A DNA stretch of 59,713 nt from Brevundimonas sp. (lineage in GTDB: Bacteria; Pseudomonadota; Alphaproteobacteria; Caulobacterales; Caulobacteraceae): positions 1-59,713 of the forward strand of contig NZ_JANJTL010000161.1 of NCBI RefSeq assembly GCF_024711105.1, given 5' to 3'. The notes under the pieces are model-generated. The model did no database searches. It was given only the letters and a program-made list of their open reading frames with translations, and was not told the DNA's origin. A program made the position numbers and the translations under genes. This document shows positions 40,431 to 43,105 of the stretch, in pieces (position 1 is the stretch's first letter; every line of letters starts with the position of its first letter).

Positions 40431-42950
40431 TCACCCGCCTCGCGGCTTTGCCCGCGTAGTGGGGAGCGCGTTGGCCGGATCCTCGGGCCAGAGGTGCTTC
40501 GGATAGCGGCCGCGCATGTCGCTGCGGACGGCGGACCAGGAGCCCTTCCAGAAGCCGGGCAGATCGCGGGTGACCTGGATGGCCCGGTGGGCGGGGCTGA
40601 GCAGTGCGAAGGTGATCGGCACAGGCGGGCGGCCGACGGTCGGATGGGCCGAGACGCCGTAGAGTTCCTGGACCCGGACCGCGACGGTGGGCCCCTGGGG
40701 CGCCTCGTAGTCGATGAGCAGGCGCGAGCCGGTCGGGGCCTCGAAGCGTTCTGGCGCCTCGGCGTCGAAGCGGCGGACCATGTCCCAGGGAATGCGCGCC
40801 CGCAGAGCGGCCTCCAGCGCCGAGTCGGAAAGGTCCGACAGGCGTCGACGGCCTTCGAGAAGGGGCAGGAGCCAATGGTCGAGATCGGCCATGAGGGCCG
40901 TGTCCGAGACATCCGGCCATGCGTCGTCGCCCCGTCGCAGGAAGGCCAGGCGCGCGCGGAGACCTCGGGACCGGTCGCCCCACGGCAAGGCGGCCAGGCC
41001 CCTGGCCTTCACTTCCGACTGCAGGGCGCGGGCGACGAGCGCGGGGTCGGGCTGGTCGATGCGGCGCTCCTCGACCACGATCTGACCCAGGCGGGTGAGC
41101 CGGCGCGCGGTGGCGCCGCCTGGGGCGTCCAGGTCGAGACGGTCCTCGATGGTCAGGCGGTCGGCGAAGGCGGTCCGAAGCTCCTCTTCATCGAGCGGCG
41201 CGGCCAGCAGGATGCGGTCACGGGCGTCGCCGCTTCCCAGTTCGGCCACCGCCAGCCAGGGCTGGCGCGCCAGGGCGTCGGTGGGTTCGATCCAGACGCC
41301 GCGGCCGGAGGCGAGGAGGAACTCGCCGGGCTTGCCGCGCGCCCTGGCGATGCGGTCCGGGAAGGCCTCGGCGAGGAGCCCTCCAGCCGTCATCCTCGGG
41401 CTTGTCCCGAGGGTCCACGGTTCAGCGGCACCGCCCTTGGTCATCTCGGCCTCCCGAGCTTCGGCGCGGTGGGCCCTCGGGACAAGCCCGAGGGTGACGG
41501 CCTGCGCCTGCTTCGCCCACCGGCCGGCCAGGGCCCGGGCATCGCGGGCGCGGGGCGAGCCGTCGCGGTCGAGGCGTTCCAGGCGGTGGACGAGGTCGGC
41601 GTCGTTTCCGCCGAGCCCGCGCTCGGTCAGCAGGACGGCGATGCGCGCAGCGATGTCCGCCTGGCCGCATCCGGCAGCCTTGAGCAGCATCTGCCCCAGC
41701 GGCGCGGGCAAGGGCAGCTCCGACAGGGCCCGGCCATGCGGCGTCAGGGCGCCCGCGTCATCCAGCGCGCCCATGTGGGCCAGTTGGACCCGCGCCTGAG
41801 TCCAGGCTCCTGAAGGCGGCAGGTCGAGGAAGGTCAGCTCGGCGGGGTCCCGGGCGCCCCAGCGGGCCAGGGAAAGCGCCAGGCCGGTCAGGTCGGCCTC
41901 GAGGATTTCCGGCCGGTCGAAGGGGACCGGGCCGCGCGTCTCCTCCTCTTCCCACAGGCGGTAGCAGACGCCGGGTTCGGTCCGGCCCGCGCGGCCGCGC
42001 CGCTGATCGGCCGAGGCGCGCGAGACGCGGACTGTCTGCAACCGGGTCAGGCCCGAGCCCGGGTCGAAGCGGGGCACGCGCGCCAGGCCGGAGTCGACCA
42101 CCACACGCACGCCCTCGATGGTCAGGCTGGTCTGGGCGATGGAAGTGGCCAGCACGACCTTGCGCTTGCCCGCCGGCGCGGGGCTGACGGCCAGGTCCTG
42201 CTCGGCGAAGGTCAGGGCGCCGTAGAGGGGCGCGAGGATCACGTTCGGATCGCGGATGCGCTCGGCGAGCCGCTCGTGCGTGCGGCGTATCTCGGCCTGG
42301 CCCGGCAGGAAGGCAAGGATGGAGCCCGTCTCCTCCGCCAAGGCCTTGAGCACGGCGCGCGCGACGCCGTCCTCCACCCGTGCCTCGCGGCCCAGGTAGC
42401 GGGTTTCGACCGGGAAGGCGCGGCCGTGGCTTTCGATCACCGGGGCCTCCAGGCGGCCGGCGATGGCGGCGCCGTCGAGGGTGGCCGACATGACCAGCAG
42501 GCGCAGGCCGGGCCGCAGCACGGCCTGGGAGTCGCGCGCCAGCGCCAGGCCGAGGTCGGCGTCCAGGCTGCGCTCGTGGAACTCGTCGAACAGGACCGCG
42601 GCGACGCCTTCCAGCCCCGGATCGTCCAGGATCATTCGGGTGAAGACGCCCTCGGTGACGACCTCGATTCGCGTCTTGGGCCCGACCCGGCTTTCCATGC
42701 GGACGCGATAGCCGACCGTCTCGCCGGGCTTCTCCCCCAGCGTCTCGGCCATGCGGCGCGCGGCGGCGCGGGCGGCGAGCCGGCGAGGCTCGAGCACGAT
42801 GATCCTGTGGCCTTCGAGCCAGGCCTCGTCCAGCAGGGCCAGGGGCGTGACCGTGGTCTTGCCCGCCCCCGGCGGAGCGATCAGCACGGCCGACGTCCGC
42901 TCGGCGAGAGCGGCCTTCAGCGCGGGCAGGGCCTCGTGGATGGGAAGCAT
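40431..42950 (-). CDS. hrpB: ATP-dependent helicase HrpB (carries a palindromic insert)
   Basis: APPGAGKTTVTPLALL, FDEFHERSLDADLGLALARD, VMSATLDGAAIAGRL, DQRRGRAGRTEPGVCYRLW; start MLPIHEALPALKA. Confidence 0.95.
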   Translation of the reverse strand: MLPIHEALPALKAALAERTSAVLIAPPGAGKTTVTPLALLDEAWLEGHRIIVLEPRRLAARAAARRMAETLGEKPGETVGYRVRMESRVGPKTRIEVVTEGVFTRMILDDPGLEGVAAVLFDEFHERSLDADLGLALARDSQAVLRPGLRLLVMSATLDGAAIAGRLEAPVIESHGRAFPVETRYLGREARVEDGVARAVLKALAEETGSILAFLPGQAEIRRTHERLAERIRDPNVILAPLYGALTFAEQDLAVSPAPAGKRKVVLATSIAQTSLTIEGVRVVVDSGLARVPRFDPGSGLTRLQTVRVSRASADQRRGRAGRTEPGVCYRLWEEEETRGPVPFDRPEILEADLTGLALSLARWGARDPAELTFLDLPPSGAWTQARVQLAHMGALDDAGALTPHGRALSELPLPAPLGQMLLKAAGCGQADIAARIAVLLTERGLGGNDADLVHRLERLDRDGSPRARDARALAGRWAKQAQAVTLGLVPRAHRAEAREAEMTKGGAAEPWTLGTSPRMTAGGLLAEAFPDRIARARGKPGEFLLASGRGVWIEPTDALARQPWLAVAELGSGDARDRILLAAPLDEEELRTAFADRLTIEDRLDLDAPGGATARRLTRLGQIVVEERRIDQPDPALVARALQSEVKARGLAALPWGDRSRGLRARLAFLRRGDDAWPDVSDTALMADLDHWLLPLLEGRRRLSDLSDSALEAALRARIPWDMVRRFDAEAPERFEAPTGSRLLIDYEAPQGPTVAVRVQELYGVSAHPTVGRPPVPITFALLSPAHRAIQVTRDLPGFWKGSWSAVRSDMRGRYPKHLWPEDPANALPTTRAKPRGG
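41389..41498. repeat. Palindromic element inside hrpB: 30-bp inverted arms around a 50-bp core
   Basis: Left arm GTCATCCTCGGGCTTGTCCCGAGGGTCCAC (41389-41418), right arm GTGGGCCCTCGGGACAAGCCCGAGGGTGAC (41469-41498); 28/30 complementary; core has its own CTCGG/CCGAG stem. Confidence 0.9.
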
Positions 42951-43105
42951 GGCCGCTCCTAGCGCGGCGCTGCCCCGCAACAAAAGCGTCGTCCGACGTT
43001 CACCGGACAGAAACCGCGTTGCGCGCGAACGCTGACCCCGTTAGCGTCCGCGCCACTGTGCAAGACCCGCTCGGGGGAGTTGGGTCCAAGGGAGGGGTAG
43101 GGCGC

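Follow-up and report, generated by a model that had tools for sequence, protein, structure and literature searches.

The hrpB locus

The window analysed here, a stretch of 59,713 nucleotides from a Brevundimonas genome, contains the helicase gene hrpB, and within its reading frame lies an inverted repeat with the following parts.

40431-42983, minus strand: hrpB, ATP-dependent (DEAH-box) RNA helicase; intact open reading frame, 850 amino acids from the first TTG
41388-41498, minus strand: peptide encoded by the insert, VTLGLVPRAHRAEAREAEMTKGGAAEPWTLGTSPRMT, 37 amino acids, in frame; expected to be part of HrpB
41386-41501, no strand: whole inverted repeat as read from the sequence, including one or two host-context bases per side
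41388-41499, no strand: head-to-head dimer of CGTC-tagged REPs (CGTC-REPs), 112 bp, ends CGTCAYC...GRTGACG; from the family end profile, the pattern matching both ends
41388-41417, plus strand: REP 1, with CGTC tag, stem ATCCTCGGG/CCCGAGGGT, loop CTTGT and tail CCA; from the sequence and family stem covariation
41470-41499, minus strand: REP 2 (inverted), with CGTC tag, stem ACCCTCGGG/CCCGAGGGC (first pair A-C unpaired), loop CTTGT and tail CCA; from the sequence and family stem covariation
41418-41469, no strand: spacer between the REPs, 52 bp, its type differing among copies, with a small CTCGG/CCGAG stem at 41445-41458

A Pfam scan of the residues from 42947 matched all HrpB domains (HrpB_C at 1.4e-47, Helicase_C and DEAD) in a full-length open reading frame, and the E. 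coli HrpB structures 6HEG and 6EUD match the window HrpB with E = 1.9e-187. Across the insert the frame is stop-free and reads ...AKQAQ-A-VTLGLVPRAHRAEAREAEMTKGGAAEPWTLGTSPRMT-A-GGLLAEAFP..., and the insert would, as far as can be judged from sequence, be translated as part of HrpB. Neither Pfam nor Rfam returned a family for the element or its peptide. An AlphaFold prediction of the window HrpB with three sequences had a mean pLDDT of 43.8, too low to be informative. On the opposite strand an open reading frame of 439 codons (window 40494-41813, plus strand) spans the element; it was rejected as a gene on a codon log-likelihood ratio of -76 and is regarded as a shadow ORF.

Anatomy of the element

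The 30-bp arms described in the first-pass annotation, lying in the hrpB frame without a stop, hold up: 41389-41418 and 41469-41498 form an inverted repeat that matches at 28 of 30 positions, while 30 shuffled versions of hrpB gave at best 20/30 for 30-bp arms placed in the same way. Single-strand DNA folding of a 130-nt segment gave -51.3 kcal/mol versus -27.7 +/- 2.9 for shuffles (z = -8.1). The palindrome reaches outward to 41386 and 41501; the element proper is taken to be 41388-41499 (CGTC...GACG, 112 bp), because copies of its family have exactly these ends.

According to the main text of Di Nocera, De Gregorio and Rocco (2013; PMC3733652), a CGTC-tagged REP consists of a CGTC tag, an 8-9 bp stem with A-T first pairs, a loop of 4-5 nt and a CCA tail, and such REPs form inverted dimers with 20-100 bp spacers, lie between convergent or tandem ORFs near 3′ ends, and occur without a dedicated transposase. 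Both window arms begin with CGTC and carry CCA after the stem, and the consensus arm, CGTC-ATCCTCGGG-CTTGT-CCCGAGGAT-CCA, has a 9-bp stem and a 5-nt loop, in keeping with the published lengths and with A-T as first and second pairs; the window arms themselves start with A-T then T-G (left) and A-C then C-G (right), both common variants within the family. The tags point outward around the 52-bp spacer. On this anatomy the hrpB insert reads as a head-to-head dimer of two CGTC-tagged REPs (repetitive extragenic palindromes) that fits the 2013 definition, a repeat class found dispersed among alphaproteobacteria. The small CTCGG/CCGAG stem previously pointed out in a 50-bp core is present (41445-41449/41454-41458) and probably incidental, since it belongs to the spacer, whose sequence changes between copies.

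Orthologs and the unoccupied site

The genome groups with Brevundimonas, from which its closest named HrpB records come. The insert is absent from the HrpB orthologs found in the genus (125 of 131 same-genus genomes were matched) and from those of the order's other families. Same-genus matches split exactly around it, at query residues 1-481 and about 519-837, and when a 150-aa query was searched against the 131 genomes, HSPs among the matches listed ended near residue 66 and restarted near residue 104. The proposal that this segment is not ancestral helicase sequence therefore survives the comparison, no HrpB ortholog found in the genus or the order having it.

The gap that the first-pass annotation had predicted, clean and of about 36 residues, is seen in the alignments but is not clean. 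Specifically, the linker between RWA and LLAEAFP has 46 residues in the window and 16-20 in every ortholog read (17, 19 and 19 in the nearest three), with 114 bp of DNA in the window where relatives have 25-37 bp. About 8-11 residues (about 25-34 bp) of linker are missing, and the net gain is 26-30 residues, about +29. On this DNA comparison, insertion combined with replacement is the preferred reading of the event, and the incoming element would have taken the place of some hrpB linker DNA; a shorter ancestral linker is a possible alternative to replacement, because the relatives are only 60-70% identical in protein sequence. An insert-free ortholog aligns with E. coli HrpB (6HEG) through the linker region, around NVRGGEADSSLIAP, and conservation there is poor.

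In one same-genus genome (G094:C1:1667058-1667429, minus strand) an in-frame TGA occurs in the HrpB linker region, possibly owing to a frameshift, decay or a sequencing error.

A repeat family dispersed between genes

A DNA search for the element matched 33 of 61 genomes, namely 32 of the 37 from the same genus and one of the 24 others in the order. A strict pattern with both exact arms was found in 22/131 genomes (reversed control 0), and a single-arm pattern in 55 of 398 genomes of the order, mostly of the window's genus (control 0). The copies examined are the best matches in a subset of genomes rather than a whole-genome census. The 101 dimers fall mainly into two length classes and two kinds of stem and loop (CTTGTCCC and CTTGACCC), and their spacers differ widely; the CTTGACCC subfamily has tails other than CCA. 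At the 202 ends of these dimers the C, G, T and C of the tag are each present at 97-99%.

Sorted by their neighbours, 55 of the 101 copies are tandem, 32 convergent, 3 divergent and 2 undetermined, and 9 overlap a called gene. Convergent placement exceeds divergent placement (sign test p = 4e-7), and the nearest gene 3′ end lies at a median of 14 bp from convergent and 18 bp from tandem copies, so that the family, like published CGTC-REPs, mostly occupies intergenic sites close to 3′ ends, normally just past a stop codon, where the neighbouring ORFs are convergent or tandem. Apart from the hrpB copy, the overlapping copies are found close to or at the called start of a gene, the choice of start being uncertain there. 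Only the hrpB copy has in-frame coding sequence on both sides, among the 101 copies and still so when 29 more were added (130). These intragenic counts rest on a home-made codon model, for which HrpB orthologs served as the training set and to which an insertion that breaks a gene out of frame is invisible. An earlier codon model, based on the longest ORFs, implied several intragenic copies and was rejected, having taken antisense shadow ORFs; an edge-coding test for disrupted genes was dropped as too insensitive, the hrpB copy itself having failed it.

The suggestion that an intergenic repeat family has reached the HrpB linker is thus supported, and the element's DNA is not peculiar to this gene, its family being dispersed in the genus and nearly always lying between genes. 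Single-arm matches in the nearest relatives number 16 in G064 (about eight dimers) and fewer in G112 and G142. In the window's own genome, where copies were counted from pattern and BLAST searches, there are several apparently intergenic CGTC-REP dimers with CCGGG-type stems (contigs C45, C171, C174, C34 and C49; L191-L202, L204). The same searches found no further complete copy with a CTCGGG stem beyond that of hrpB, and because the other elements detected in this genome have CCGGG stems, none of them was identified as the source copy. A partial DNA match at C166:100-123 was discarded, inspection revealing no element. A lone half element lies at C19:3183 (L100).

The hairpin as the constrained unit

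The whole palindrome had been thought able to fold as one cruciform of 110 bp, which is not borne out: the stem pairs covary locally within each arm, and the constrained unit is therefore two separate hairpins, arranged as a head-to-head REP dimer, and not one long cruciform. In 109 distinct arms, positions 6 and 26 are paired in 102 (shuffle mean 77, maximum 85), as T-A or C-G in 98, and pairs 7/25, 8/24, 9/23 and 13/19 likewise form more often than in every shuffle; the shuffles keep column composition and not relatedness, so that p-values from this covariation test are not exact. At pair 6/26 the left and right arms of one element disagree in 23 of 90 cases, yet each arm pairs locally.

Stronger evidence for constraint on the hairpin than this shuffle test comes from compensated changes in place. 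At one orthologous intergenic site (L235-L239) the arms have changed to CCTAGGCCTTGTGCCTAGG, with every change compensated and the spacers still recognisable. Over the wider site (L235-L242, around L105 1493-1598), CTCGGGCTTGTCCCGAG is replaced by CTAGGCCTTGTGCCTAG between species through several compensated substitutions, also in one arm only, while the spacers are similar. Judged from these alignments, the L235-L242 site would be a case of in-place hairpin turnover.

Comparison with known repeats

The closest counterpart is the CGTC-REP of PMC3733652, whose tag, stem, loop, tail, dimeric arrangement, location, lack of a dedicated transposase and occasional intragenic copies, as its main text gives them, are all like those of the window family. 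Intragenic CGTC-REPs are reported there from several species, with many of them in genes for DNA repair and some within RNA helicases; the hrpB copy, a single dimer coding for 37 residues, is above the 20-30 residues typical there. Neither Brevundimonas nor Caulobacter is mentioned in the paper's main text, its figures may list a relative, and a literature search by arm sequence returned no relevant paper.

The comparison with Rickettsia palindromic elements drawn in the first-pass annotation holds, since the main text of PMC3733652 identifies RPE-4 as a CGTC-4 REP and RPE-6 as a CGTC-1 REP. Like these, the hrpB copy is a CGTC-REP in frame in a conserved protein gene and absent from the orthologs; unlike in R. 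conorii, where intragenic RPE-4 and RPE-6 copies are frequent, such a position is taken by 1 of 130 copies in the window family. Rickettsia RPE-1 and Wolbachia WPE are also palindromic elements in protein genes, where they are translated, but they are longer palindromes of other sequence; Wolbachia CGTC elements are, in the same main text, unrelated to WPE.

Two further systems resemble the family in part. The CcrM-associated intergenic repeats (CIR) of Caulobacter, from the same order, are also intergenic, about 100 bp long and built of arms that form separate stem-loops, but they are defined by GANTC sites, which occur in 13 of 101 cores of the window family (below the 21 expected by chance) and not in the window copy; identity with CIR was rejected on this GANTC (CcrM) content. 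CIR have been reported as not found intragenically (PMC2229807). REPINs, built of GTAG-tagged REPs, share with the family the inverted pairs of small hairpins dispersed between genes; they carry a GTAG tag and are mobilised by RAYT, whereas the window element has a CGTC tag and RAYT (PF01797) is absent from 127 of 131 genomes, so that it is not a REPIN.

Origin and status of the insert

The account that best covers these observations, to which we assign a probability of roughly 0.88, is that a CGTC-REP dimer was copied into the hrpB linker, kept the frame and has been tolerated there as passenger DNA. One dimer would have been copied, in this lineage, into the linker ahead of the conserved LLAEAFP motif, a variable stretch rich in Gly, and would have replaced about 25-34 bp of linker DNA. 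The frame survived because the element happens to have no stop in this phase and altered the length by a whole number of codons; a mean of 2.4 of the six frames of a copy (about 40%) is stop-free, and therefore a copy that likewise changes the net length by whole codons can persist at a site where a loop accommodates extra residues. HrpB would then be expected to carry about 29 extra residues in a loop, if translated as predicted. Passenger DNA is the most likely status of the insert, which would then be neutral.

A different possibility is that hrpB is inactivated or decaying in this lineage, with the element as one symptom and its frame open by chance, as the stop-free proportion just given would allow. 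HrpB indeed seems dispensable over evolution, being unmatched at E <= 1e-50 in 13 of the 61 genomes searched, several of them complete genomes from other families. Against decay stand the full-length ORF with all domains, a fully gene-like codon usage (log-likelihood ratio 217 under the codon model trained on HrpB orthologs) and low dN/dS on both sides of the insert. More specifically, NG86 dN/dS between the window hrpB and its nearest relatives is about 0.15-0.22 on either side of the insert, where the computed ortholog pairs span 0.10-0.39, and for this reason the gene does not look dead; purifying selection has evidently been kept on both sides, and decay is improbable.

It would be quite improbable, too, that the insert is regulatory, its hairpins acting in the hrpB transcript as sites of RNA processing, pausing or termination that tune HrpB output. 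The family's stems are under structural constraint and its copies sit at gene 3′ ends, where REPs are thought to act on RNA (PMC3733652, main text), but the insert occurs in one genome only, and a role inside hrpB is unsupported.

Palindromes are troublesome for genome assemblers, and the genome in question (2.69 Mb) is a draft of 181 contigs, which might point to an assembly artefact or a chimera formed at the repeat. The element is, however, in the middle of a 59.7-kb contig with hrpB continuing in register on both sides, and searches of the genome gave no second full copy of these arms with which it could have been joined, which makes an artefact very improbable. That the segment belongs to HrpB as genuine conserved sequence, with codons palindromic by chance, is scarcely credible and already refuted by the ortholog alignment, for although it is in frame and stop-free in an intact gene, it is missing from the orthologs of 125/131 same-genus genomes, whose matches split around it, and of other families, and the same DNA ends recur at dozens of unrelated intergenic places.

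With the insert read as a tolerated REP dimer, the palindrome itself is ordinary for these bacteria, and the hrpB copy adds a clean case to a kind of event that is known but uncommon, intragenic CGTC-REPs having already been described. It is a well-documented one, in which a normally intergenic REP dimer has, by prediction, turned into protein sequence in a free-living bacterium; the orthologs are unoccupied and selection on the host gene is retained, and therefore the neutrality of such inserts is testable.

Spread of the family

The copies also provide a large genus-level data set for how CGTC-REPs without a known transposase spread. Of 131 genomes, 4 gave a match to RAYT (PF01797, Y1 transposase), the window's own not being among them; the 127 without it include element-rich ones. 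Mobilisation by RAYT is thus unsupported, and the family, in a search that covered PF01797, agrees with CGTC-REPs in having no dedicated transposase. Target-site duplications, by which MITEs are judged, did not appear either, the flanks of the 101 copies having no excess identity at any offset for lengths of 2, 3, 4, 5 and 8.

Spread may have occurred by recombination or template-switch copying at single-stranded hairpins, or by a transposase acting in trans or since lost. These routes are favoured because no RAYT was found in the window's genome. Recombination or template switching would fit better than cut-and-paste transposition because linker DNA seems to have been replaced, duplications are lacking and orthologous sites carry unrelated spacers. 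At several such intergenic sites, different species have REP dimers with a different stem type, a different length and an unrelated spacer, as if swapped or re-inserted (L038 1410-1519, L180 3959-4092, L144 2501-2637, L162 2501-2609, L124 1493-1616, L166 2396-2529); core identity there is 0.37-0.57, and 0.46 for random pairs.

The scarcity of intragenic copies (1/130), though genes cover most of such a genome, implies that such copies are strongly removed or that insertion is aimed at the ends of genes. It is tempting, if doubtful, to suppose that CGTC-REP dimers are still spreading in Brevundimonas without a Y1 transposase, by insertion with replacement at hairpins; new or swapped elements would then be expected in the same intergenic niches across species and, now and then, in genes such as hrpB.

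Irrespective of how the neighbouring genes are oriented, the 10-15 bases outside the 101 copies are poor in G on the left and poor in C on the right, which suggests a target or context preference.
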